Assembly (NCBI RefSeq): GCF_000024425.1
Contig: NC_013946.1
Location: forward strand, 682,001 to 746,000
Length of the DNA: 64,000 nt
Reading direction: 5' to 3'
Origin: Meiothermus ruber DSM 1279
GTDB taxonomy: Bacteria; Deinococcota; Deinococci; Deinococcales; Thermaceae
This document shows, piece after piece, positions 39,231 to 54,552 of the stretch. The notes below the pieces were generated by a model, which had not been told where the DNA came from, made no database searches, and saw only the letters and a program-made list of their open reading frames with translations. The position numbers were made by a program, and so were the translations under genes. Position 1 is the stretch's first letter, and every line of letters starts with the position of its first letter.

Positions 39231-42200
39231 TCAGTTCACCTGCACCCGGTACACGAAATACCCTCCCTGACCAGGCAGCAAGGCCGGGGCGCTACCCCCG
39301 CCGGGCTGGGGAGCGGTGGGAAGGGTGCAGAGTGCGGCCAGGTTCAGGCTGATGCTGTTGGTGTTGCCCAGGTCGGGCCGCACCACCGCGCCGTTTGGAC
39401 AGACCAGCTCCACCTCGCCGGTGCCGCCGTAGGCGTTCTGCACCAGGGTGCTGAAGAAGGGGATGGGGTCGTAGAGCACCACGTTGAAGATGGGCTGGCT
39501 GCCGATGTTCTGATACTGGATGCGGTACTCCAGCACCTCGCCGGGGCGGCCCTGGGCGCTGGCCGCAAAAGCGGTGTTCTGGCTTACGTTGCGCACCTGC
39601 TTTTCCAGCCGCAGCTCGCCGCCGCGGATAACGGTGGTGGCATCGGTCAGGCCGCGGGTTTCCTGAACGGCCGGGTTGTTGCTCCAGGCCAGGCTGGCGC
39701 TGAGGCTGGCGATATCCACCTGGCCGGCGCTCACCCCTGCGGGCACCAGCACCTGCACCTCGAGGGCGCAGGCCGCCAGGCTGCCGTCCGGCTCCCGCGG
39801 CCAGCTAGAACCCACGCTAAAGCTCTGCGGTAGTCCCTGGAAACCCTCGCCGGCGTCGTCGAAGTCGCCGTCGCAGTTCACATCGCGGCGGAGCTGGTAG
39901 CCAAACTGCGGGGTGTTGACCAGGGCCAGGCTGACCGTGCCCAGGCTGCCGGGCTTGAACTGGTGCAGGTAGCGCACCACCCCGGGGCTGGTGGTCTGGC
40001 CCGACTGGTCGGGCCGGAAGAGCGAACTGCGCACCACCCCAAAGTTGCGGGTAAGGCTGGAGCCGGCCAGGCTGCTGGCCGAACCCAGGCTGACCACGGC
40101 ACCAGCGGAGGTGGGGCCTGTGGCGTCGGCCCAGCTTCCCACCAGGGTGGCGGTGCTGCCGTTGTTCCAGCCGGTGGCCGGGCGCAGGGGGTGGGAGAGG
40201 CTGACGCTGCTCCAACTGGCGGGTACATACAGGTAGTAAAAGCCGTTGCCATCGGTGCTGGTCGTGCGACTAGAGGTACCGTCGCTGGCCGTGATCACCA
40301 CACCGCCCACGCTGCGCTCCTGGCCATCCTGCAGGGCATTGTTGGCGGTGCCGCCGCTCTCGCCATCGTCGTAGAAGACCCGGCCCTCTACCCTGAACCC
40401 CCGGAAGAGGCCGAAGTCCTGGTTCAGAAGGTTGCTGGAGGTCATGGTGATGGCCCGGCTTCCAGTGGCAGGGTTGATCAAAAGCCAGCCAGTGGGGGCG
40501 GTGGGGGTGGTATCGGCGGTGCTGTTGTTGTTGTCCAGCACCAGGGTGTAGCTGCCGGGAACGACGCCGCTAAAGGTGTAGCTGCCGGTTCCGGGGTTCA
40601 CGGTCTGGACGGCCACCACCGTGCTGCCCTGTACCAGCTTCACGTAGACTGTAACCCCGTCCGACCAGTCCTCGCCGTTCCTGGCCCCGTTGGGTTCGCG
40701 GTCGTGGTAAATCTGGCCGGAGATGTCGAGGCCCACCACGGTTAGCACCGCGCTGGCTGGGCTCTGGTTGCTGCCGTAATTGGTCTGGAGGGTGCCGGCG
40801 GCCAGGGTGTTGGTGTAGCTCCCTGGTGTGCTGGCGGTTACATTTACGCTAACGGTGCAGCTCCCGTTGGCCGGAATCTGGGCTCCGGCGGCCAGGGTTA
40901 GGCTGCCGCTGCCGGGCGTGGCGCTCAGGCTGCCGCTGGGGCAGGTGGTGCTGGCGTTGGTTGGGCTGGCTATCACCACCCCAGCGGGCAGGTTATCCAC
41001 CAGGGCCGCGCTCAGGGTGGCGGTGGTGGGGTTGGGGTTGCTGAGGGTCAGGGTCAGGGTGCTGCTGCCGCCAGCCTGGATGCTGGCCGGGGCGAAGGCT
41101 TTACTCAGGGTGGGGGGATTGGAGACCTGGCTGTTGGCCGAGGTGCTGGCGCTCTGGCTGAAGCTGGTGCCCAGGGTCTGGCTGTTGTAGTTGATCTGGG
41201 CGGTGTTGGTGATGGTTTGCCCGCCGGCGCTGGGCAGCACCTGTACCCGGAAGCGCACGCTGGCACCCTGAGTCGGTAGGATGAGCCCGCCACTCGTGGC
41301 GTTGGCCCCGGTGCCCAGGCGGAAAACCACCCGGTTGTTGGCGCTATCAAACTCGGCGATGTCGTCGCCGGCGGCATCGGTAAAGGAGCCGGTGGGGGCA
41401 CCGATGGCGTTGGTGAGTACCTGCAGGCTTCCCGGTACGTACTGGGTGCCAGCAGGGATGGGGTCGCGCACGACCACATTGGTGGCCCCATCCAGGCCGG
41501 TGTTGGAAAAACTCAGGGTGTACTCGAGGATATCGCCCACCACCAGGTTGCCCCCGTTGATGTCCTGTCCGGTTTTGCTGAAAGAACTGGTGAGATCGGG
41601 AAGGTAGACCTGGGTGGCAAAGGTCAGCACGGTGGGGAAGTAGACGTCTTGAGAGGAGGTGAACTGAATGGTTGCTGAAGTGGCTCCATTGGGAATGCGA
41701 CCCGTGGCGTCCACCAGGTCTACGTCCACCGCCATCTGGTTGAGATAGTTGGGGTTTTTGGCGGTGAAACGGGTACCGAGCTGCGACACAGAGCTGTTGA
41801 AGAAGTTGTCGCTAGGGTTTTGTGCATCGCTAAGCGCTACCTCATTTAGCACCAATTGGTCACCTGTGATGCCCCCATCCCCCTCAAAAGCCACCGCTCC
41901 CAGATAGGCGGTAAAGGAGCCTGTGTAGGGGGTCAGGAAGCCGCTGGGGGTGATGGTGACGTTGTTGCCGTTGCTTACCGAGGCCAGACCATCGTAGATC
42001 GTGAGGTTGCGGAGGGGCTCGCTGGATAGCCGGTAGACCACCACCAGCGACCAGCCGGCGTAGAAGCCCAGACTATCGTTTCCGGTGGCGGCCAGGATAC
42101 CCCCTACCCAGTAGGGGCCGCTGCCGCTGGTTTGAACGAGGCTGGTTACGTCGGCAAAGGCGGTGTAAGGGCGGGTGGTATCGGTGCCCTGGTTTGTGAT

Positions 42201-42620
42201 GGTGCCAAGGAGGGTGCCGGTGAGGGATTGGTAGGCTGAAGCCCCAGGGGGCTTGATGGAAATCTGGTTGCGCCCCGAGGTGCTGGGGTCGACCCGCGCC
42301 CCCCAGTAGAGCCCGGCCCACAGCACCTGGGCCCCGGTGGGGAGGGAGAGGGTTGCGCTGCTGCTTCCCCCACGGCCCGAGGGCCAGGTAGGGTTGGCCG
42401 GGTCGGCGTTGATGAAGATCATGTTTTGGTTGTTGTTGGCATTGGGGTTGTTCATTTGGGTTGTGTTACAAGTACCCATGCTTACAGCGCACATCAGGGT
42501 GTTGCCCACCAGGGTGATATTGCCGTTGGTGGTGTTTTGGTAGCGGATGCTAAATGAGGTCACCACCTGGGCCTGGGCCAGACCCAGCAAGAGCAGCATG
42601 AAAAACAGCGCGCGTTTCAT
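39231..42620 (-). CDS. Large exported DUF11-type repeat protein (surface operon gene 5)
   Basis: 1129 residues with a signal peptide (MKRALFFMLLLLGLAQAQ). Residues about 60-350 look like a DUF3344-type domain (TGAQVLWAGLYWGARVD, DVTSLVQTSGSGPYWVGGI). Then come DUF11-like Ig repeats (LTSSFSKTGQDINGGNLVVGDILEYTLSFSNTG; TLSKAFAPASIQAGGSSTLTLTLSNPN), two SdrD_B-like domains (LDISGQIYHDREPNGARNGEDWSDGV; VEGRVFYDDGESGGTANNALQDGQERS), and a last DUF11 repeat ending YFVYRVQVN. The protein stops at the end of a beta-strand, with no anchor or sorting motif. Likely a secreted fibrous or adhesive protein. Its ATG overlaps the stop of the barrel gene. Confidence 0.82.
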   Translation of the reverse strand: MKRALFFMLLLLGLAQAQVVTSFSIRYQNTTNGNITLVGNTLMCAVSMGTCNTTQMNNPNANNNQNMIFINADPANPTWPSGRGGSSSATLSLPTGAQVLWAGLYWGARVDPSTSGRNQISIKPPGASAYQSLTGTLLGTITNQGTDTTRPYTAFADVTSLVQTSGSGPYWVGGILAATGNDSLGFYAGWSLVVVYRLSSEPLRNLTIYDGLASVSNGNNVTITPSGFLTPYTGSFTAYLGAVAFEGDGGITGDQLVLNEVALSDAQNPSDNFFNSSVSQLGTRFTAKNPNYLNQMAVDVDLVDATGRIPNGATSATIQFTSSQDVYFPTVLTFATQVYLPDLTSSFSKTGQDINGGNLVVGDILEYTLSFSNTGLDGATNVVVRDPIPAGTQYVPGSLQVLTNAIGAPTGSFTDAAGDDIAEFDSANNRVVFRLGTGANATSGGLILPTQGASVRFRVQVLPSAGGQTITNTAQINYNSQTLGTSFSQSASTSANSQVSNPPTLSKAFAPASIQAGGSSTLTLTLSNPNPTTATLSAALVDNLPAGVVIASPTNASTTCPSGSLSATPGSGSLTLAAGAQIPANGSCTVSVNVTASTPGSYTNTLAAGTLQTNYGSNQSPASAVLTVVGLDISGQIYHDREPNGARNGEDWSDGVTVYVKLVQGSTVVAVQTVNPGTGSYTFSGVVPGSYTLVLDNNNSTADTTPTAPTGWLLINPATGSRAITMTSSNLLNQDFGLFRGFRVEGRVFYDDGESGGTANNALQDGQERSVGGVVITASDGTSSRTTSTDGNGFYYLYVPASWSSVSLSHPLRPATGWNNGSTATLVGSWADATGPTSAGAVVSLGSASSLAGSSLTRNFGVVRSSLFRPDQSGQTTSPGVVRYLHQFKPGSLGTVSLALVNTPQFGYQLRRDVNCDGDFDDAGEGFQGLPQSFSVGSSWPREPDGSLAACALEVQVLVPAGVSAGQVDIASLSASLAWSNNPAVQETRGLTDATTVIRGGELRLEKQVRNVSQNTAFAASAQGRPGEVLEYRIQYQNIGSQPIFNVVLYDPIPFFSTLVQNAYGGTGEVELVCPNGAVVRPDLGNTNSISLNLAALCTLPTAPQPGGGSAPALLPGQGGYFVYRVQVN

Positions 42621-45600
42621 CGGCTACCTCCCAGGAAGTCGAGGCGCAGGTAGAAGCCGGGGGCGGTGTCGGGGGTGAGGCCGCTGAAGCCGCCGAAGGT
42701 GTAGCCCGCGTTGAGCCACAGGCCCTCTACGACCCGGAAGCTGGCCTCGAGCGAGAAGGCAGTGGCGCTGGTCTGGGTGCCCGGCTGGAACTGGTAGTAG
42801 GCAGCGGCCCCCAGGCCCAGCCAGTCGGTGAAGTAGTAGTTGCCGCCCAGGCCGAGCTGGTAGGTGTGGCCGGCGGGGTCGTCGAGCTTGAGGCGGTAGG
42901 CGGCGCTGGGGCGGAGCTGGAGGCTTGGGCTGGGGTGGTAGCTGGCGGCCAGGGCCCCCTCGAGGACAAGCTCACCCACGGTGCTCAGGCGGTGGTAGGT
43001 GAGCACAGAAGCCTCGCGCCCGCGCAGGGCGTAGGCCAGGGTGAAGCGGCCCTCGGCGGTGGGTACGATCTGGTAGTTGGCATCCAGCGAGAGGGTCTGC
43101 TGCTCGTCGAGCTGCCCGCTGGCCCCGGCCCGCAACACCACCTTGGGCTGGCCGGCGCTCCAGGCGGTCTCGGCCCCCAGGGTGGCGGTGAAGCCCTGGG
43201 CCTGGTAGCGCAGGGCCAGGCCAAAGGCACTCTGGTCGGCGCCGCTGGTGAGGCTGCGCTCGTAGCCGGCGCTGGCGTTCAGGCTCCAGTTTTCGGACAG
43301 GGGGAGCGGGGCCTCCAGGCCAAAGCGGGCCCGGTTGCCCTCGCCCGCCGCGCCCGGCAGTTGGTAGGCCAGCGAGAGGTTGGCCCCGGCCAGTTGTTGC
43401 TTGAGGCCCACCACGCCGCTAAAGCCCAGGCCCCAGGTCTGCACCAGGTCGGCCTCGGCGGTGAGGTTGGCATCGAAGGCGTAGCTGCTGCGGAGGCGGG
43501 TGGAGGCGCTCTGGCTCAGGCTGAAGGGCTGGGCGTGGGTCAGTTCGGTGCTGAGCGGGCCGCTCTTGAAGCCCAGCCGCCCCAGGCTGGCCCAGGCCGC
43601 TTCCTCCCAGGTGTAGCCCAGCCCGCCCCCCACCGAGAAGCTGGGGGAGAGGCGGCGGGTGTAGAGCAGGCCGGTGCGGTTGTTGCTGCCGGTCTGGTGC
43701 TCGAGGCTGAGCTGGTCGGCCTCGCTCAGGTTGTAGGCCACCTGGGCCTGGCCCTGCAGCTTGCCCTCGTAGAAGAGGTTGGCGCTCGACTCGAGGGGGC
43801 CCTGTTTACCGGAGACCTCGAGGCCGTAGCGCTCGGCGCTGCCCCGGCTGTAGCTCACCTTTACGCCAAAGCCGGGTAGCTGGTAAGCGGCCTCGGCCCC
43901 GTAATGCCAGCCCTGGGCGGGCAGGTAGGCTGCGCCCAGCCCAATGCTGAAATCGCCCAGCTTCCAGCGGGCCCCGGCCCCGTAGCCCAGCGCGCGGTGG
44001 CCGCCCTGGGGGGCGTAGGTGACCTCGAGCAGAACCGGCTGGAAGTCGGGGTCGCTGGGCCAGAGCGGACGGCTGAGGGTGAGGAGGCCGGTATCGGCGT
44101 CCAGCACGTAGTCTTTGAGGCGCTCGAGGCGGCTCTGGCTGGAACCCACCCAGAGCACCACCTGTTCGCTGCCGGGCTCGGCTGGGCCGCTTAGCCTATA
44201 AAAGCGGGTGCCGTCGGGCACGATGCGCTCGCTTCTGCTGCCGGCGGGTAGGTAGCCCACGAAGCCCTGCAGGGCCAGCTCGCCACCCGGTGCACTGGCG
44301 GAGCCCGTCCCGAGAGGGGATCGTCCGCGGGTTTCCAGGCGCAAAGCGGTGCCCTGGGGCAGCCCGTCCAGGCCAAACACCCCCAGCTTGTCAGCGTAGT
44401 AGCCCAGGCTGAAGGCCTCCTGGTCGTAGCGCAGAGCAAAAGGCTCATCCGAGCGCAGGGGCAGGGTGGCCTCTTGGCCGCTGCCGGTGAGAGGGAAGCG
44501 CCCGGTGGGGTCGGGCTGGTCGCGCAGGCCGGTTTGCAGCCGGGGCTGGCCCGCCTCAAAGCGCAGCGAGCCGTCCAGCGCGCCTTGCAGGAGGCCCGGG
44601 CCCAGGGGGCTTTCCAGGTAGCCCCGGCCCAGCCCAAATACCTGAAGGCTATCCCCAAGGCGCACCCCCAGGCTCCCCTGAAGCTGCCACAGGGTGCTCT
44701 GGCGGCCCAGTACGAAGAACTCGGCCTGTGTTTGCAGCTCCCCGGTCGCCAGCCGCAGGCGCAGGGGGGTGGGGGTGGCGGTGGGCTTCAGGTAGAGCCG
44801 GGCCACTCCATCCTTTAGCAGCACCTGATACCCCGAGAGCAGGGGGAAGGCGTCTTCCTCCAGGGGCTCCTGGGAGGCTTCTACGGTGAGGGGGCCGAAG
44901 CCCGAGGCCAGGCCCAGCGCATCCACCGCCCGCACCTCCAGCTCCAGCGGGGTGCGGCCATCGGCCAGCAGGCGCAGCGGACGTACCTCCAGCCGCACGG
45001 GGTTACCGGCCAGGAAGACCTCCACCCGATCCGAGCCCAGAGGGGTCTGCACCTCGATCAGGTTGCGGCCTGGCTGGAGCGGCAGGCCGTAGTACTCCAG
45101 GCGCTGGAGGCCGAGGGCGCTGTCGTAGGTGGCCTGGCCCAGGAACCTGGAGTCTATGGGGCTTCCGTTCACGCTCAGGCGGGTCTCGAGGCCGTTGGGG
45201 GTTTGCAGCACCACCCGGGCTTTATCGCTGCGGAACACGCTGCCGGGCAGGGGCTCCTGGATGAAGCCGTCGCGGGTATTAACCACGATGGGCTGGGCTT
45301 TTTCCAGGTCGGCCAGGCGCTGCTGGCCCTGCAGGTAGACCTCCCGGTCGCCTACCTGCGCGGTCAGGGTGGGTTCGGGTATGGGGCCCAGGGCCTCGCG
45401 GTGACGGAGCTGGTAGGTGAGCTGGCCCTGGCGCTGGTAAGGCAGCTCGAAGTAGAGGCGGCCCTTCTCGTCTTGGCGGGGGTCGGGGAGGGGGCGGCCA
45501 TCCAGCCGGGCCGAACCGGGCTCATAAGCGCTCTGGGCAGGGGGCAGGTGGGTGAGTAGCAGGCGCTCGAAGGGGGCGCTGCCCTTTACCGCAAAGTCCA

Positions 45601-48205
45601 GGGTGACGGTGGAAAGCCGCCGGGGCTCGAGGATGGGCAGGGCCAGCAGGGTGGCCCTGGCCGGGAGGGAGGCTGGGGTGCTGCCCACAAAGGCCGTGAC
45701 CTGGTTGTCGAGCGGGCCAACCCGTTCGGCCTGGGCCTCCAGCTTAAGCTCGCGCACCTCGCCGGGCTGTAGCCTGAATTCCAGGCTTTCCGGCAGGGTC
45801 ATCCGTAGGCCCTCGGCGGGCGACTCCTGCAGGCGCAGGTTGAGCGGGTGATCGGTGGGGTTGCCAACCCGGACGGTAAAAAGGCCCGAACCGCCCACCA
45901 GCACCCGGCCCGGCTCGACGCTTTTCTCGAGCTGCACCAGCACCCGCTGGAGGGTGTCGGGCGCGCTGGGGTGGCCGCCGTTGGAGGTGAGCTGGGCCAG
46001 GAACGGGCCCTCGGCCGCCGGGCCGAAGCGCACCCGGGCGGTGTAGGAGTGGGTGGCGCTGGCCCCGGGGGCCAGTTCGCCGCTAAAGACTGGGGTCTGC
46101 GCCACCTCGAGCCACTCGGGGTAGCTGTCGCGCAGCTCGTAGCGCAGGGGGGCCTGGCCGGTGTTGCGCACCACCAGGCGCACCTCTACTTCCTCCCCCG
46201 GCACCACCCGGCGCTTGTCCAGCGTGCGCGAGAGCTCGGCCACCGGGCGCAGCACCCGCACCTCGGCCTGGGCTTCGCGGAGGGGTTGATTGCTTTCGCT
46301 GAGCAGGCGGGCGGTGTTGATCACCACCGCAGGGGCCTCGGCGGTTACGCGGGCCTGCACCTCGAGCACGCGTTTGGCTCCGGCCGGAAGCTCGAGCACC
46401 TCGTCGAGGGTGGGGCCCTGCAGTCCTTGGGTCAGGCTGTCCTGGAGGCGCACCCGGCCCGCCTCGTCGCCGGTGTTCTGCACCCGCAGGCGGTACACCA
46501 CCGTACCGCCCACCGGGGCCGTGGGTGATAGGGCCTCCTTCTGCAAGGTGAAGGTGGCTGGTTGGATGATTCTCAGCTGGGCGCTGGTTTTCTGGCCCCA
46601 GGGGCTCAGGGTGGCCCCAACCTGGGGCTCGCCTCTGCACAGGGCCCTGGCCCGTACCTGCAACACGGCCTCGCGGCCCTGGGCGATGGGGGCCGCCAGG
46701 CGGGGGGTCTCGAGGGCTTCCAGGCAGGGGGGCAGTTCAAGCTCGAGGTCGGCGGGCAGCAGGCGCGGGAAGGCGGTGCGGGCCCGGGCGGTTAGAAGGG
46801 TTTCCTCCCCCACGCGTAGCGTAGTGGGAGCGGCTTCCAGGGTGAGCTGGACTTCTGGGTAGACCCTGAAGCGCACCGTCTGGTGCTGGCCGTTTGTTAG
46901 CGTGACGGCCTGGGGCCCCTCGATCCGGGCCCCGCCCAGTTGGGGCGCGAGGGAATGGGTGCCCGGCGCCAGGCTCAGGCGGGCCCGGCCCTGCTCCAGC
47001 ACCACGGGCTGATCGTTTACCGTGAGGGGTAGGTCGAAGGGCTGTTCGCCTTCCGGCAGCACCAGCACCGCCTCGATTTCCAGGGTGGACGCGGGTGGGG
47101 CCGGCGCCGGTTTTTCCACCACATAGCGCACCAGGCCGCCTGCACAGCCGAAGCGGGCGGTCTGGGCATCCAGGGCCTCCCCGCCTTCCACCTCCATCCG
47201 CAACAGCCGGTAGCCCTCGGGCAGGGCCGGCAGCCGGAGGGTGCGGACTTTGTCGCCCTCCACGGCAGGGGTGATATCGAGCGGCTGGCCGCTGCTGTCC
47301 TGCACCAAGGCCTGCACCGGGCGCGGGGGTATCACCCGGAAGGCTGCCGGCTCCACCTCCATACAAGCATCCACCCGGAAGCCGATGGTGTTGGAGTACT
47401 GGGTGGCAGTCTTGGGCTGGCGGAAGCCGAAGGTGATCAGGCCGGGCTGTCGAATCTCGTAGTAGGCCCAGCTCCGGTCGCCGGAGACAGGGCGGCGCTC
47501 CTGGGTTCCGTCGGGCAGGCGCACCCGGCCCTCCATCTCCTTTGCGCCGTCCTCGTCGTAGAAGCCCACGCGCAAGGGCAGCACCTCGGGGCTCACGTTG
47601 AGCACGAAGGGCTCGAGCCAGTCCTGCCCCCGGATGGTGGCTACCGAGAGCGGGTTCACTGCCTGAAAAGGCCGCACATCGTAGAGCTGCAAGGTGGGGT
47701 CAATCAGCAGCTCAGCGGCCCCCGGCACGCTGGTCTGGATGCGGTAGCGGAAGGCGTTTTTGCCCAGCCCGACCAGTCGGCTCTTGAGCAGGTAGACCCC
47801 TGGCTCCACCTGTCCCCGGAAGAACAGCACCCAGCGGTGGGGCTCCACGCTAAAGTTCTCCTGGGCCAGCACCTTTCCGTCCCGGATCAGCACAAACTCG
47901 GCCAGCATCTGACCCCGCCCCTTGTCGTAGCGTTCGTCGCCCAGCTCCTCCTGGCCCTTGAGGGCCCGGCGGTAATCGGTGGGGTCGAAGCCGGGGGAGT
48001 AGATCTGCAGGTTCAGGATGGTGGGTTTGTGCACCACCACGCTTGAGCGCAGCTCCTGGATTTCCCAGCCCAGCGCATCCCCCGGCACGATGCCCTTGAG
48101 GTCGGTGCGGACCTGGCCCAGCGCTGCCGAAGAAAGCAAGAAGACAAGTGAGCAAAGCCCGCGCCAAGCCAGCGCCAGGGTGTGGGGGGTTCTTCCGAAC
48201 ATCAC
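42617..48205 (-). CDS. Giant outer-membrane protein: Ig-like repeats plus beta-barrel (surface operon gene 4)
   Basis: 1862 residues. A signal peptide (ending SSAALGQ) is followed by an N-terminal beta domain (to about 300), then several Ig/DUF11/CARDB-like repeats to about 1200. From about residue 1240 to the end the pattern changes to dense alternating amphipathic strands with aromatic girdles (LGYGAGARWKLGDFSIGLGAAYLPAQ, YQLGLGGNYYFTDWLGLGAAAYYQFQPG), ending GFYLRLDFLGGSR. This is the pattern of an outer-membrane beta-barrel of more than 20 strands. It may anchor or export the repeat proteins encoded around it; it is not a classical fimbrial usher. ATGA overlaps with both neighbours show strict co-translation. 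Confidence 0.8.
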   Translation of the reverse strand: MMFGRTPHTLALAWRGLCSLVFLLSSAALGQVRTDLKGIVPGDALGWEIQELRSSVVVHKPTILNLQIYSPGFDPTDYRRALKGQEELGDERYDKGRGQMLAEFVLIRDGKVLAQENFSVEPHRWVLFFRGQVEPGVYLLKSRLVGLGKNAFRYRIQTSVPGAAELLIDPTLQLYDVRPFQAVNPLSVATIRGQDWLEPFVLNVSPEVLPLRVGFYDEDGAKEMEGRVRLPDGTQERRPVSGDRSWAYYEIRQPGLITFGFRQPKTATQYSNTIGFRVDACMEVEPAAFRVIPPRPVQALVQDSSGQPLDITPAVEGDKVRTLRLPALPEGYRLLRMEVEGGEALDAQTARFGCAGGLVRYVVEKPAPAPPASTLEIEAVLVLPEGEQPFDLPLTVNDQPVVLEQGRARLSLAPGTHSLAPQLGGARIEGPQAVTLTNGQHQTVRFRVYPEVQLTLEAAPTTLRVGEETLLTARARTAFPRLLPADLELELPPCLEALETPRLAAPIAQGREAVLQVRARALCRGEPQVGATLSPWGQKTSAQLRIIQPATFTLQKEALSPTAPVGGTVVYRLRVQNTGDEAGRVRLQDSLTQGLQGPTLDEVLELPAGAKRVLEVQARVTAEAPAVVINTARLLSESNQPLREAQAEVRVLRPVAELSRTLDKRRVVPGEEVEVRLVVRNTGQAPLRYELRDSYPEWLEVAQTPVFSGELAPGASATHSYTARVRFGPAAEGPFLAQLTSNGGHPSAPDTLQRVLVQLEKSVEPGRVLVGGSGLFTVRVGNPTDHPLNLRLQESPAEGLRMTLPESLEFRLQPGEVRELKLEAQAERVGPLDNQVTAFVGSTPASLPARATLLALPILEPRRLSTVTLDFAVKGSAPFERLLLTHLPPAQSAYEPGSARLDGRPLPDPRQDEKGRLYFELPYQRQGQLTYQLRHREALGPIPEPTLTAQVGDREVYLQGQQRLADLEKAQPIVVNTRDGFIQEPLPGSVFRSDKARVVLQTPNGLETRLSVNGSPIDSRFLGQATYDSALGLQRLEYYGLPLQPGRNLIEVQTPLGSDRVEVFLAGNPVRLEVRPLRLLADGRTPLELEVRAVDALGLASGFGPLTVEASQEPLEEDAFPLLSGYQVLLKDGVARLYLKPTATPTPLRLRLATGELQTQAEFFVLGRQSTLWQLQGSLGVRLGDSLQVFGLGRGYLESPLGPGLLQGALDGSLRFEAGQPRLQTGLRDQPDPTGRFPLTGSGQEATLPLRSDEPFALRYDQEAFSLGYYADKLGVFGLDGLPQGTALRLETRGRSPLGTGSASAPGGELALQGFVGYLPAGSRSERIVPDGTRFYRLSGPAEPGSEQVVLWVGSSQSRLERLKDYVLDADTGLLTLSRPLWPSDPDFQPVLLEVTYAPQGGHRALGYGAGARWKLGDFSIGLGAAYLPAQGWHYGAEAAYQLPGFGVKVSYSRGSAERYGLEVSGKQGPLESSANLFYEGKLQGQAQVAYNLSEADQLSLEHQTGSNNRTGLLYTRRLSPSFSVGGGLGYTWEEAAWASLGRLGFKSGPLSTELTHAQPFSLSQSASTRLRSSYAFDANLTAEADLVQTWGLGFSGVVGLKQQLAGANLSLAYQLPGAAGEGNRARFGLEAPLPLSENWSLNASAGYERSLTSGADQSAFGLALRYQAQGFTATLGAETAWSAGQPKVVLRAGASGQLDEQQTLSLDANYQIVPTAEGRFTLAYALRGREASVLTYHRLSTVGELVLEGALAASYHPSPSLQLRPSAAYRLKLDDPAGHTYQLGLGGNYYFTDWLGLGAAAYYQFQPGTQTSATAFSLEASFRVVEGLWLNAGYTFGGFSGLTPDTAPGFYLRLDFLGGSR

Positions 48206-50931
48206 GGATACCTCCAGCGCACCTGTGGATCGGTCAGTTGAGGGGCCCGGGGGCTGTCCAGGTCGTAGGTCAGGGTCTGGCGGCCCTGGAACAGCGCAAA
48301 CTGGAAGACCCGCTCACCGCCGCCGGGGAGGGGGTCGGTGAGGGTCAGGTCGGTGAGGGGCTCGGCGGATTCCAGTACCAGCACCACCCGGACTCCAGCG
48401 GGGAGCGGCAGCAGCTTTTTGTGCAGGGTGAGCGGCCCGAATTCCAGGGTGGTTTCGCGCTGGGCGTGGGCCAGACCCGCGGGGCGCTCGAGGGGGAAGT
48501 CGCTCACGGTCAGGCCCTCCACCCGCACCCGGTGGCGGTAACCCGCCCCCTGGGCCTCGGGGTGGGGGAGGGGCGGGAAGGGGGCCGAGGCCGGCTCGAG
48601 CATCACCTCCCACACCCCACCCGTCAGGTTGCGGAAGCTGTAGCGGCCTTCGGCATCGGTCAGGGCCTGCCAGCCGTTGCTGAGGATAACCCGGGCCCCC
48701 GGCAGCGGCACATCCAGGCCGGCGGTGTACAGGCCGTCGCGGTTGGTATCCAGGAAGACCCGGCCCATCAGCAGGTGGGGTGCGGCCAGCACGCCCTGCT
48801 CGACCTGTACCGCAGCCGAGGCCACCGCGCTGGCTACCGCGGTTCCGCTTGCGCTGTCCCCGGTGGCCTGCACGGTATTTTTCAGTTCGCTACCGGCTCC
48901 CGCCAGCACCCGCATACGGTAGCGGATCTCCATCCGCTCCCCTGGGGCCAGGGTGAGGTTTTCCCAGATGAGGCGGCTGTTTTGCAGAACGGGTTCGGCG
49001 GGGCTGGCGCTGCCGGCATGGTATTGCAGGTGGGGGTCGGGGGTGTCCTCGAGGCGCACCGTGAGGGGAACCTGCCCCACATTGGCCACGGTCAGGGTAT
49101 AGGTGAGCAGGTCACCCACCCTGACCTTTCTGGGCTCCACCCGCTTTTCCAGAAGCAGGGCCGCCGCCTGCACCCGCAAGGTGACGCTATTGGAAACCAA
49201 TGGGTTGCCAATCTCGGCAGAACGCAGGCTGAAGCGGTTCACGATGGTCACATTGTCGGGCGCAGCGGTGCTAACCCGCACCCGCAGGCGCAGGGTAAGG
49301 GTGCTCCGGGCTGCCAGCGTCAGGTTCCAGCGCACGGTGCGGGTTCCGGGGTCGAAGACCCCCCCGTCGGAGGCCGAGAGGAACTCGAGGTGGGCATCCA
49401 GGGTGTCTTCAATTTGCACGTTGGAGATGGTCAGGGGCAGCGGGTTCTCGACCTGCAGGGTGTATTCCACCCCCTGCCCAGGACTCGCGGTGGGCCCGCT
49501 CGAGCTGCTTTTGAACAGGACGATCTGAGAAAGATCCCAGACCTGCGCAACGCGGTCCACGGTGGGGTCGGCGTTGCCGGTGCTCCCCGAACGGGCCAGC
49601 AGGCTGAACTCAAAGGCGGGCGTACCGGGGGGCAGGGCCGATACACAGGCCTGGAAGTCCAGGCTGTGGCCCGCGGCCAGGGTGATGGGGGTGGGCAGGC
49701 TGCCTCCGCCCATGGTGCGGTAGGTCAGGTTCACACCGCTGGGCAGCCCAAGGGCCTCCAGGGTGTAGGTGTCGGGGGCGTTGCCGCTGTTGAGCAGGGT
49801 ATGGCTAAAGCAGTAGGGCTGCCCGGCCAGCACCTCGGCCTCCTGCCGGTCGGCGGTGCCCGCGGCCTGCGGGTTGCCGATGGGCCCCAGGGCGTGGGCG
49901 TACTCGGCGGCAATTTGCAGGGAAGCCTGGGTCTGGGCGCTGCCCTCGCTTGAGCTGACCTGGGCCAGGTTAACCCGCTCGCCCGGCGCAGCATCGGCGG
50001 CCACCTGCATCCGGAAGCTAAAGATGGCCTCCTCCCCGACCTCGAGGCCGTCCAGCACCAGCCGGATACCCCGCACGAGGGTGGGCTCGAGGCTGCCCCA
50101 GTTGGCCCCATCGAAGTACTCCAGGCGGCCTTTGACCGTACTTGCAGAGCCGGCCAGATACGCCAGGCCATTCAGTCCGGGTATATCCAGACGATCTTCC
50201 ACATAAACTGGGCCCATAGCGCGCGCGCTGCCCAGGTTCTGTACCCGCAGGGTGAAACCCACGGTCTGGTTTTGTCGAACTGGATTCGCATCCACCGACT
50301 TGACCAGGCTCAAAGCCGGCCCGCTGCCGATGCGAATAGAGCTAAAGTTATCCTCATCGCGCGTACCATCGGGGCAGGTAGCCACGGGGCTAATCAAAAG
50401 CTCGCCGCTGGCCGAGGGTGGGGTCTGTACGGCCAGAATCAGATGGGCTTCCTGGCCCATATCCAGGCTGAGGCTGCTGACCTCCGGCTCGCCGGGGTCG
50501 AGCTGGGCGTTGGCATTGGTGTCCAGATAAAAACGCACGGCGCTGGGTGTCCAGGAGGCCCCATTTTGCAACCAGCTCAGGTTGAACAGAAAACTTTGAT
50601 TTCCACTGTTTTGCAGGCGATAGCTAAAATAGGCGGTTCCACCGGCTGGAGCAGTGGTGCGCTGGCCGGGGCTGGCAAGACTCCCATTGGGGGTCATGGC
50701 CGGAACGCACACCGCCTGTACCCGGGTTTCCACCTCGTTGGATAGATATATCTGGCCGTTTACAATGGCTGCAGCCTGGTTGCGAATTACCGTCCCGGCG
50801 GGTGCAGCCCAGGCCAGGTGAAGCCAAAACAAGGCCCACACCAGAACTGCCCAGAAGGCAGAACCCCGGTTCTTTTGCTTAAAGAACCTCTTAACCCTGG
50901 GGGCAGTTGGTGTGGGCGCTTGAGTTTGCAT
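48202..50931 (-). CDS. Large exported DUF11-type repeat protein (surface operon gene 3)
   Basis: 909 residues with an unusually long basic N-region before the signal helix (KRFFKQKNRGSAFWAVLVWALFWLHLAWA). The mature part is a chain of DUF11-like Ig repeats, such as ALSLVKSVDANPVRQNQTVGFTLRVQNLG, IVLFKSSSSGPTASPGQGVEYTLQVENP and LLEKRVEPRKVRVGDLLTYTLTVANVGQVP. An SdrD_B-type domain near 720-790 (MGRVFLDTNRDGLYTAGLDVPLPGARVIL) carries a calcium-loop-like Asp pattern. No sorting motif is present. The stop overlaps the start of the barrel gene. Confidence 0.82.
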   Translation of the reverse strand: MQTQAPTPTAPRVKRFFKQKNRGSAFWAVLVWALFWLHLAWAAPAGTVIRNQAAAIVNGQIYLSNEVETRVQAVCVPAMTPNGSLASPGQRTTAPAGGTAYFSYRLQNSGNQSFLFNLSWLQNGASWTPSAVRFYLDTNANAQLDPGEPEVSSLSLDMGQEAHLILAVQTPPSASGELLISPVATCPDGTRDEDNFSSIRIGSGPALSLVKSVDANPVRQNQTVGFTLRVQNLGSARAMGPVYVEDRLDIPGLNGLAYLAGSASTVKGRLEYFDGANWGSLEPTLVRGIRLVLDGLEVGEEAIFSFRMQVAADAAPGERVNLAQVSSSEGSAQTQASLQIAAEYAHALGPIGNPQAAGTADRQEAEVLAGQPYCFSHTLLNSGNAPDTYTLEALGLPSGVNLTYRTMGGGSLPTPITLAAGHSLDFQACVSALPPGTPAFEFSLLARSGSTGNADPTVDRVAQVWDLSQIVLFKSSSSGPTASPGQGVEYTLQVENPLPLTISNVQIEDTLDAHLEFLSASDGGVFDPGTRTVRWNLTLAARSTLTLRLRVRVSTAAPDNVTIVNRFSLRSAEIGNPLVSNSVTLRVQAAALLLEKRVEPRKVRVGDLLTYTLTVANVGQVPLTVRLEDTPDPHLQYHAGSASPAEPVLQNSRLIWENLTLAPGERMEIRYRMRVLAGAGSELKNTVQATGDSASGTAVASAVASAAVQVEQGVLAAPHLLMGRVFLDTNRDGLYTAGLDVPLPGARVILSNGWQALTDAEGRYSFRNLTGGVWEVMLEPASAPFPPLPHPEAQGAGYRHRVRVEGLTVSDFPLERPAGLAHAQRETTLEFGPLTLHKKLLPLPAGVRVVLVLESAEPLTDLTLTDPLPGGGERVFQFALFQGRQTLTYDLDSPRAPQLTDPQVRWRYP

Positions 50932-51002: not shown

Positions 51003-53696
51003 TTACTGCACCTGCACACGGAAGCTGAGGGTGATGGTAGCCCCCGGTGGCAGGGTGTCGGCGCTGGTGATAGTGTTGTCGCCGTTGGTGTCCACGGCCA
51101 CGTAGAGGGTCTGGCCCGAAGCCAGGGCGGTTGGGGCCGTGGTGCTCCAGGTGCTGCCATCGGTGGAGTAGAGCACAGTACCACTGAAGCCGCTGATGCT
51201 GGCGCTGGCGCTGACAAAGCTGGTGTAGCTGGGCAGCGGATCGCTCACCACCACCTGGGTCAGGTTGCCCGTACCAATGTTCTGGGCTACCACGGTGTAG
51301 AGGATCTGGTCGCCGGGCAGGGCCACCGCCGCGTTGGCATCCCGTACGGTGGTGCTGCTACCCACATAGCTCACCGCGCTCTTGGTCAGGCGCAGGTCGC
51401 CGCCCACCACGGTGGTGGTTTCCGAGGCCGTGGCGGTGACGCTTGCGCTGGCAATGGTGCAGCTTGCGGTCAGGGTATTGACGTCGGTGCGCCCGATGGG
51501 CTGGCCGGCCGGGGTCAGCACCCGCACATACACCACCTGGCTGCCGCCGTTGGCCGCCACCGTGATGCTGCTCAGGCTGGAGGCCCAGGTGCTGCCGTCC
51601 AGCGAGTACTGATAGGTCCAGCCGAAGCTCCCGCCGCTGCCGGAGATGCTGCAGGTCGCACCGCTGTTGGAGTTGTTGGTCAGGGTGTGGGTGTACTGGA
51701 GGGTGCCGGGGCTGGTGATGGTGCCGCTGCGGTTGGGCGTCAGGCTCACCTGGGCTACCAGGTTTACATCCACCGCGCCGGCAATGGTATCGCTTACACC
51801 GGCCAGGGTGGTGCTGGTAGCGGTGAACTGTACGTTGTCGTTGGTGCCTGCGGTGACATCCACCGGAGCAGCACCAGCGGGCACCTGTACGGCTGCGATG
51901 AAGCAAACAGTGGCACCAGCGTTGATCAGGCCAGTGCTGCTCACCGGGGCCGGGGTGGGGGTGTCCATCACGCCGTTGCAGTCGGTATCGGGGTAGAAAA
52001 CCGCCGTCCAGCCCGAAGGCAGGTTGGAGGTGAGGGTGTAGCTATCGGGGTTGGCCCCAGTGTTGTGTACCTCGAAGGGGAAGTAGGCCACACCGCCGGG
52101 GTTGACCGCGGGGTTGTAGCCGGGGCGGGTGTCGTTGGCGGGGTCGGCGCCTTCGCCGCCAGCAGCCCCGTTGGTGTTGTGGGCGACATCCAGGCTGTAG
52201 CCCGAGACCACGTTGGTCACGGCCAGGGTGGTCGCATCCACCCCGTCCAGCAGGGTGCCCACGCTACCACTGGGGTTGTTCACCGAGGTTGCGGTCAGGG
52301 TGACGCTGCCGCCGGTGGTCTGGCTGGCCGGAATAGCGCAGCGCACCACCACGTTGTAGGTTGCACCAGCCGCCAGCGGGCCCACCGGGCCGGAAAGCGG
52401 GGTCACGCCGTCGGATTGCAGGATGGTGCAGGTGCCCAGGGTGCTGGTACCCAGGCTGAGGGTGAAGCTATCGGGGGCGTTGCCGGTGTTTTGCAGGGTG
52501 GAGTTGAAGGTCACTGTGCTGCCGGAAGTGGCGGTAGCAATGGTCTGGGTATCGGCCCCGTCTATAGCGCTGGCCCCGGTGCCGCCGATGGCCACGCTGT
52601 AGCGGCTGGCCGCGGTGTTGTTGGTGGTGTTGGAGGTGGTGGTCTGGTTGGCGGTTCCGTCGTTGTACTGGACGGTGGCGGTGTTGGGGTAAGCGGTGCC
52701 GGCCGGGGCGTTGGCAGGTACGGTGGCCTGGAAGCTGAAGGTGTACGAGGCGGTCTGGGGGAAGAAGGCCCCACTGCCGCTGATGAACATACCCACCCGG
52801 TTGGAGCCGTTGCCCACGAAGGGGAAGGTGGGGGCGGTGGTGCTCCAGGAGGTGCCGCCGTTGGTGCTGTAGACGATCTGGACGGTGCCAGCCCCAGCGC
52901 TGCCGGTGGGGGCAGCGGGCACGCTCAGGCCGGTGGGGATGGTGTCCGAGATCAGGATGCCGGTACCGGTGAGGCCGCTCACGCTCACGCCGCTGGCCGC
53001 GCTACCGCCGGTGTTGGAGCCGGAGATGGTGTAGGTGATGGTGCTGCCAGGGGTGACGGGGCCGGCCGGGCTGGCCGACTTGGTGGCGGTCAGAATGGCT
53101 GCGGTGGTGGCGGTGGCGCGGGCCCAGTTGTTGTTATCGGTGGTGCTGGGGCTGCCCGCCGAGGTGCCCACCAGGTTGAGGTTGCCAAACTGACCGCTGG
53201 TAGCCGAGGCGGGAATAGTACCGGCCACGATCACGCAGGCGCTGGCACCCGGAGTGCCCTGGCGGCTCAGGGTGACGCTGGTGATGGGGGAGGTTTCACC
53301 CGAGTCGAGCGTGCCGTTGCAGTTGGCGTCCAGGTAGCGGGCAGTCCCGCTCAGATCGAAGTTGTCGCCCGTGTCCTGCGCCAGGGTCAGGTTGATGGTA
53401 TCTGTGCCGTTACCGGTATTGCTGACCGTGTAGCTGAAGTAGACCGGGGCGCCAGCCAGGGCTGTACGGGTCTGGCCCGGGGCGGTGGTGCTGCCGTCGG
53501 GGGTGATGCTAAAGCTGTAGACCTGCTGCACCACCGTAATGACCTGGTTGGAGGTGGTTGTTCGGGGCTGGCCGGCTGAGTCGATGTAGCTGGCCGAGGC
53601 CTGGTTGGAGATGTTGGTGCCGGCGGGCGTCTGCTGGGCCAAAGCCAGGCCCAACAGCAGTATCGCCGCAAGCAAGATGGGATGGGTTCTCTTCAT
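51003..53696 (-). CDS. Large exported DUF11-type repeat protein (surface operon gene 2)
   Basis: 897 residues from the ATG at 53696 (AGGAG five bases upstream), with a signal peptide ending LALAQQ. It is rich in Thr, Ser, Asn, Gly and Ala and poor in charge, with repeats each starting near a sequence such as YSFSITPDGSTTAPGQTRTALAG, LTATKSASPAGPVTPGSTITYTISGSN and VSLTPNRSGTITSPGTLQYTHTLTNN. Cys pairs occur in several repeats (ASACVIVAG, GTCTILQ). It ends TLSFRVQVQ, on a beta-strand. Composition suggests an abundant surface or fibre protein. It follows gene 1 after 16 bases. Confidence 0.82.
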   Translation of the reverse strand: MKRTHPILLAAILLLGLALAQQTPAGTNISNQASASYIDSAGQPRTTTSNQVITVVQQVYSFSITPDGSTTAPGQTRTALAGAPVYFSYTVSNTGNGTDTINLTLAQDTGDNFDLSGTARYLDANCNGTLDSGETSPITSVTLSRQGTPGASACVIVAGTIPASATSGQFGNLNLVGTSAGSPSTTDNNNWARATATTAAILTATKSASPAGPVTPGSTITYTISGSNTGGSAASGVSVSGLTGTGILISDTIPTGLSVPAAPTGSAGAGTVQIVYSTNGGTSWSTTAPTFPFVGNGSNRVGMFISGSGAFFPQTASYTFSFQATVPANAPAGTAYPNTATVQYNDGTANQTTTSNTTNNTAASRYSVAIGGTGASAIDGADTQTIATATSGSTVTFNSTLQNTGNAPDSFTLSLGTSTLGTCTILQSDGVTPLSGPVGPLAAGATYNVVVRCAIPASQTTGGSVTLTATSVNNPSGSVGTLLDGVDATTLAVTNVVSGYSLDVAHNTNGAAGGEGADPANDTRPGYNPAVNPGGVAYFPFEVHNTGANPDSYTLTSNLPSGWTAVFYPDTDCNGVMDTPTPAPVSSTGLINAGATVCFIAAVQVPAGAAPVDVTAGTNDNVQFTATSTTLAGVSDTIAGAVDVNLVAQVSLTPNRSGTITSPGTLQYTHTLTNNSNSGATCSISGSGGSFGWTYQYSLDGSTWASSLSSITVAANGGSQVVYVRVLTPAGQPIGRTDVNTLTASCTIASASVTATASETTTVVGGDLRLTKSAVSYVGSSTTVRDANAAVALPGDQILYTVVAQNIGTGNLTQVVVSDPLPSYTSFVSASASISGFSGTVLYSTDGSTWSTTAPTALASGQTLYVAVDTNGDNTITSADTLPPGATITLSFRVQVQ

Positions 53697-53712
53697 GTAC
53701 ACTCCTATCGAT

Positions 53713-54231
53713 TTATCGCACGATTACGCGAAGTGTGAGGGTAAGGGTCTGTTGAGGCTCCATTTGCGGAATAATCCAGCGGGCATGGGTGTATTCTTCA
53801 GGCTTGACTTCTACTTCCTTTTCTACCTCCTTGCCGTTTTCCACAACTTTGAGTTTTCGCTTGAGGGGGGGATGGCCGTAGCTTTTCCCTCCATCGAAGC
53901 TAAACTCGGGAACAACCAGGGTATCTCCCAGGCGCAAAGGCAGCGCGCTTTGGGCCTGGTAGGCGGTGGTGGGGGGTATGGGTATCACCAGGGCTACCCG
54001 ACGGAGTGGGCTGGTGAGGGTGTTCAGGGCGGTGAGTTGATACTGGATAACCTGACCTGGCTTCGCATCCAGGGCGGGCTCGAGCCGCTCGACGGTACGG
54101 TTTTGCTCCTGTACGCTCACGACCCGGAAGGCCTTGAGATCAAGCCGTATGTCACTGCTGGCCTGAGCCAGGGCCAGACCAATCAGGCACAGTAGACCTG
54201 TTGCAAACCGCCACCCAAAGTGTTTCATCAT
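53713..54231 (-). CDS. Small exported beta-domain protein (surface operon gene 1)
   Basis: 172 residues from the ATG at 54231, with GAGGAG seven bases upstream. A signal peptide (ending GLALAQA) is followed by one DUF11-like Ig domain: TVERLEPALDAKPGQVIQYQLTALNTLTSPLRRVALVIPIPPTTAYQ. A charged insertion follows (KRKLKVVENGKEVEKEVEVKPEEYTHARWIIPQ), and the protein ends TLTLRVIVR. Being small and first, it could be a pilin-like subunit, a tip or a chaperone for the bigger proteins; this is inference from position. It is preceded by a structured leader. Confidence 0.75.
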   Translation of the reverse strand: MMKHFGWRFATGLLCLIGLALAQASSDIRLDLKAFRVVSVQEQNRTVERLEPALDAKPGQVIQYQLTALNTLTSPLRRVALVIPIPPTTAYQAQSALPLRLGDTLVVPEFSFDGGKSYGHPPLKRKLKVVENGKEVEKEVEVKPEEYTHARWIIPQMEPQQTLTLTLRVIVR

Positions 54232-54244
54232 CCTTGCACTCCTC

Positions 54245-54341
54245 AAAAAAAGCAACGACCGACTCAAAAAAAGAGCCGGTCGCGCCACTGGCTACCTCCA
54301 TCCCCATGGCGCCCGTGTGGGGGACTGGAGGTCATCACCTC
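54245..54341 (-). ncRNA. Pseudoknot-capable leader RNA with terminator before the surface operon
   Basis: On the minus strand, ACCTCCA and TCCCC (54332-54320) pair with GGGGA and TGGAGGT (54305-54294) to give a 12-bp stem with one bulged G. Its loop contains GCGCCA (54312-54307), which is complementary to TGGCGC at 54287-54282, giving a pseudoknot. Immediately after comes a terminator stem GACCGGCTC/GAGTCGGTC (54281-54257) followed by seven U (54251-54245), 6 bases before the GAGGAG site. ACCTC can instead pair with an upstream GAGGT (54341-54337), so two exclusive folds exist. Ligand unknown. Confidence 0.6.
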
Positions 54342-54552
54342 TCAAAGGGGCAGTTTAGTGGAGATTTTTGTAACGTTTGTGCGCAATAACCATAAACTTT
54401 TGGATGGGCTATAAGATGCCGTTCTGGGCGCGCTTTTCTACCCAACGGATTCGCATACCATAGGTGGGTATACTATCTGATGCGCAATCCAGAACCTGTA
54501 ACCAACAGAAAACAGCCTGGTCTGGAGCCGGCAGGCCCTGTCCTGGGAGGTG

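Follow-up and report, generated by a model that had tools for sequence, protein, structure and literature searches.

A predicted c-di-GMP-II-type riboswitch with a variant pocket ahead of a surface operon in Meiothermus ruber

The window analysed here is a 64,000-nucleotide stretch of Meiothermus ruber DSM 1279 (NC_013946.1, positions 682,001 to 746,000), and all coordinates refer to it. Five genes on its minus strand are read in the same direction from 54231 to 39231 (∼ 15 kb), and the last two junctions overlap. The first gene (53713-54231) encodes a 172-residue secreted protein, an orthologue of which, from another family, weakly resembles DUF11. Domain matches identify the second gene product (51003-53702) as an 899-residue DUF11 protein and the third (48202-50931) as a 909-residue protein with several DUF11 domains. 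The fourth (42617-48205) is an 1862-residue DUF11 protein, the C-terminal part of which resembles an outer-membrane beta-barrel at a score below the Pfam cut-off, and the fifth (39231-42620), the start of which overlaps the stop of gene 4, is a surface protein of 1129 residues. The operon is preceded by a leader element on the same strand, reading from 54343 to 54245, and the Shine-Dalgarno sequence of the first gene (GAGGAG, 54239-54244) is kept in four genomes. A candidate -10 box, TAAACT (54352-54357), would place the start of transcription near the first base of the aptamer described below. No consensus sigma-70 promoter was found, and we counted this against our main reading. Meiothermus leaders also share a conserved block, TTATGNTTATTTTGCACA (window 54400-54380).

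The whole window was searched with Infernal against all Rfam models. The sole riboswitch match is to RF03169 (c-di-GMP-II-GAG) at 54343-54273 on the minus strand, with 47.3 bits (E = 3.7e-6 for the whole window), above the gathering score of 40 bits. The same segment scores 34.5 bits against the canonical family RF01786 (gathering score 53.5) and 34.3 bits against RF03170 (c-di-GMP-II-GCG; gathering score 47.9), and so lies below threshold for both. RF03169 belongs to clan CL00127 (c-di-GMP-II), and the P1-P2-P3 arrangement with a pseudoknot that marks this clan is present in the window aptamer and backed by covariation. An expression platform that overlaps the aptamer, also tested as a trait of CL00127, is found as well; such overlap is a general feature of riboswitches. 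The leader as a whole folds more stably than expected by chance (z = -3.68; none of 200 shuffled sequences was equally low). A sequence-only reading of this DNA had held that the leader did not fit the c-di-GMP consensus and was an uncharacterised sensor, and had allowed that an Rfam match to a known class would end its novelty. The RF03169 match contradicts the first two statements and brings about the third. Judged by its sequence, the leader belongs to the c-di-GMP-II riboswitch type as a pocket variant and is not a new kind of sensor.

Neither Rfam variant family, however, fits the window aptamer fully, because nucleotides 67-69 read GCG whereas the best-scoring model has GAG. The aptamer shares the overall fold and consensus of RF03169, including C37 and G69, but has G40-C68 where the RF03169 consensus has U40-A68 (GAG at 67-69). 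With RF03170 it shares GCG at 67-69, which we read as the meaning of that family's name, but its score is below the gathering value. From canonical RF01786 and the 3Q3Z structure it retains P1, the bulged A13, P2, P3 and the pseudoknot, with G39, A61, C68 and A70-G73 unchanged, and differs in having C for U37 and G for A69.

The aptamer (54273-54343) begins with the P1 5' strand GAG (54341-54343), which pairs with CUC at 54275-54273; the corresponding columns 16-18 and 89-91 of our alignment A3 covary. P2 (54339-54337 with 54292-54290; overall 54290-54339) encloses P3, which consists of 54330-54326 with 54300-54296 and further inner pairs; both rest on the RF03169 match, covariation and the fold. 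The 12-bp stem noticed earlier is this P3 region, although it is interrupted, with 7 and 5 bp separated by a small internal loop. The loop sequence GCGCCA (54312-54307) is perfectly complementary to TGGCGC (54287-54282), as had been noticed, and this pairing is the pseudoknot of the c-di-GMP-II class. Its core, GCGCC (54312-54308) with GGCGC (54286-54282), is paired in 100% of 78 sequences, with compensatory changes at two pairs. Both of the competing partners proposed for ACCTC exist, but the second, GAGGT at 54341-54337, is not conserved among relatives, and we rejected its pairing as a functional stem.

RF03169 matches occur in 74 of 111 Deinococcota genomes, often in several copies, and RF01786 matches in 77 of 111. 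Covariation in relatives, which the sequence-only reading had proposed as a check, is strong. Counted over 78 aligned Deinococcota copies and a named structure of 20 pairs (1559 cells), 94.2% of cells are paired and two-sided, compensatory changes occur at 16 of the 20 pairs. The covariation score is 0.512, compared with 0.188 after shuffling and no more than 0.108 when the structure is slid; none of 500 shuffles scored as high. The leader of the relative G043 is 98% identical to that of the window. Our pattern-based detection at first missed aptamers with short P3 loops, and many matches of the collection-wide pattern scan are chance; of the matches in the loci concerned, the covariance model retains 39.

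Nucleotide numbers are those of 3Q3Z, transferred to our copies with the help of the 3Q3Z sequence, in which each of the thirteen contact letters matches the published list. These contacts to c-di-GMP are A13, A14, U37, G39, U60, A61, C68, A69, A70, C71, C72, G73 and A74 (PMC7288161). According to the alignment, covariation count and fold, two of them are exchanged in the window: nucleotide 37 (54315), canonically U, is C, and nucleotide 69 (54281), canonically A, is G. Further departures from 3Q3Z, at positions 14, 60 and 74, are mostly shared by canonical Deinococcota copies. Among the 78 copies the pair 37/69 is U-A in 46 and C-G in 32 and never mixed, and visual reading adds two more C-G copies. 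Of all columns, 69 is the one with which nucleotide 37 shares most information. Contact positions 39, 61, 68 and 70-73 are invariant throughout, C-G copies included. C37/G69 would be an equivalent substitute for the interacting bases U37 and A69. Two pattern detections with other letters at 37/69 lack an aptamer fold and were counted as chance. Outside the phylum, a c-di-GMP-II-like aptamer of Rubrobacteraceae (L161:3981-4079, L209:5949-6047) appears to combine U37 with G69 and is a possible intermediate between the pocket types. The C-G type also occurs with a much longer P3 region, in Microthrix and in another actinobacterial copy (L164:123-249, L185:4888-5014).

An intrinsic terminator stem-loop (54255-54283) follows and partly coincides with the aptamer. 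The stem, described earlier as 9 bp, comprises 10 bp with one G-U pair (54282-54273 and 54265-54256) and extends to 11 bp if a terminal G-U is counted. Its loop contains seven U, and UUGC separates the stem from a tract of seven U (54245-54251) that was correctly noticed. The tract directly adjoins the Shine-Dalgarno sequence (54244-54239), so that the gap of six bases previously placed before the ribosome site does not exist. The terminator scan found two terminator-like sites in 501 bases, compared with a mean of 0.5 after shuffling, and the one described here is the stronger. The 5' arm (54282-54273) corresponds to aptamer nucleotides 68-77, a stretch that runs from the final base of the pseudoknot through the ligand-binding strand to the P1 3' strand. 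In each of the three further Meiothermus genomes with the element (L043, L016, L036) the leader is laid out alike and aptamer and terminator overlap. The 5' arm lies inside the aptamer in the window, in these three and in L008, with terminators of -15.2 to -20.8 kcal/mol, and also in L064, a copy of the canonical U-A type that shows the same terminator logic as the window leader. The proposed layout of a transcriptional riboswitch ahead of the 15-kb surface operon therefore stands, given the Rfam match, covariation, terminator overlap and gene order, and a transcriptional riboswitch with a pseudoknot and terminator at this place is well supported.

Because the terminator 5' arm is the ligand-binding strand, the bound aptamer and the terminator are mutually exclusive, and ligand should therefore prevent termination, as in an ON switch. 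The unconstrained minimum free energy is -45.5 kcal/mol with the terminator, compared with -22.8 kcal/mol when the aptamer helices are enforced and the pseudoknot is not counted; the ligand-free default is therefore predicted to be OFF. Without ligand, the terminator would form as the thermodynamic default and transcription would halt before the first gene. The time for a decision would be that needed to transcribe the ∼ 17 nucleotides by which the finished terminator 3' arm lies beyond the finished aptamer. If c-di-GMP were bound within this interval, P1, the pseudoknot and the pocket would sequester the ligand-binding strand, no terminator would form and the five-gene surface operon would be read. 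We conclude that the leader is probably a c-di-GMP-II-type riboswitch that turns transcription on and that, despite C37/G69, still has c-di-GMP as its ligand.

The same architecture and ON logic could serve a different ligand in the C37/G69 pocket, such as c-AMP-GMP, pGpG or a further dinucleotide that contains guanine. Nucleotides 37 and 69 are both ligand contacts in the canonical structure (PMC7288161), and Rfam keeps RF03169 and RF03170 as separate variant families. Pocket changes have altered the ligand in c-di-GMP-I variants, rare forms of a cyclic-dinucleotide riboswitch that respond to c-AMP-GMP (PMC7266159); this is a precedent for a changed ligand, but the fold is unrelated, and in the c-di-GMP-II copies 37 and 69 change as a pair while orthologous leaders switch between types. 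Canonical and variant copies coexist in the M. ruber genome. In family-f4 genomes, two divergent genes each have their own switch at a constant position, one of the U-A and one of the C-G type. This could mean that the two switches respond to different signals, and it counts against our main reading. In spite of these points we regard a changed ligand as unlikely, for reasons that come from orthologous leaders and from the second-messenger genes.

One argument is provided by gene B, which encodes a secreted protein of about 200 residues in Thermus and a sister genus. Its leaders are of the C-G type in G047, G057, G064 and G071 and of the U-A type in seven others, and one more is a decayed U type. 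The gene-B tree requires three type changes throughout the bootstrap range, at least two of them forced by well-supported branches. On this tree G049 (U-A) and G064 (C-G) are sisters with support of 100/99, and the P3 and loop of their leaders are near-identical save for 37 and 69. An RNA tree from which columns 37 and 69 were left out gives eight type changes (eight to nine in bootstraps, at least two forced). Orthologous leaders have thus switched type with little other change, and a ligand that stays the same is the easiest reading of repeated exchange ahead of one gene. Furthermore, the orthologue of the window's own first gene at L064 is headed by a canonical U-A aptamer. A doubled box like TTTCACACGGCTTTCACAC precedes 10 of 12 Thermus gene-B leaders (L102-L112) and is possibly an activator site.

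The inventory of synthases also argues against another dinucleotide. Every one of the 111 Deinococcota genomes searched encodes GGDEF domains, with 17 matches in the M. ruber genome; the 12 with a readable motif all keep the Asp that marks canonical diguanylate cyclases, and none is of the type that makes c-AMP-GMP. The M. ruber genome has no SMODS domain, which led us to reject SMODS-made dinucleotides as ligands, and neither SMODS nor the 12 readable GGDEF motifs offered a source of c-AMP-GMP in this genome. The c-di-AMP cyclase domain DAC, present in 92 of 111 genomes across the phylum, is absent from 18 of 18 Meiothermus genomes, and c-di-AMP was therefore rejected as a ligand in this genus. 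The pattern suggests a genus-wide loss of c-di-AMP synthesis, as nearly all other Deinococcota have DAC.

Both the U-A and the C-G pocket, to judge from these comparisons, most likely sense c-di-GMP. It is doubtful that the C37/G69 copies are a riboswitch class of their own whose ligand is neither c-di-GMP nor c-di-AMP; if they were, a single Meiothermus genome would use two closely related RNAs to read two signals.

An aptamer that no longer binds ligand, leaving a constitutive or differently regulated attenuator, would account for the low score of 34.5 bits against the canonical model, and the relative G062 does have a visibly decayed leader. We consider this very improbable, since C-G copies show no variation at the remaining contact nucleotides, the pseudoknot is paired in every one of the 78 sequences and aptamer and terminator are retained together in four Meiothermus genomes. 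An OFF switch, in which ligand binding promotes termination and the further pairing of GAGGT (54341-54337) with ACCTC acts as the competing stem, is the least probable reading of all, since the binding strand itself supplies the terminator 5' arm, so that a bound aptamer excludes the terminator, and since that competing stem is not conserved in relatives.

If the leader is a c-di-GMP-responsive ON switch, as we prefer, a large and otherwise uncharacterised Meiothermus DUF11 surface operon would be tied to second-messenger control. In twelve other Meiothermus genomes the first operon gene is without a detected aptamer, and riboswitch control of the operon is therefore lineage-specific. The orthologous Thermus leaders, much alike save for 37/69, are natural mutants that make the ligand of the variant directly testable. 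What may be added here is modest, an evolutionary argument on the pocket of a known riboswitch type; the kind of sensor itself is known.

Pairs of divergent genes with a U37/A69 riboswitch on one and a C37/G69 riboswitch on the other, a few hundred bases apart, were seen at L009, L012, L017, L018, L055 and L056. The canonical c-di-GMP-II copy of the M. ruber genome (63.7 bits against RF01786; G000:C1:2770688-2770773, in L001 and at L071:6689-6774) heads genes for a subtilase, a 236-residue protein and a GAF-GGDEF-like protein, and a divergent gene for an HD-GYP response regulator adjoins it. Subtilase, GAF and HD-GYP were assigned by reading the sequences and GGDEF by domain search. At this subtilase/GAF-GGDEF operon, c-di-GMP may regulate its own synthesis.
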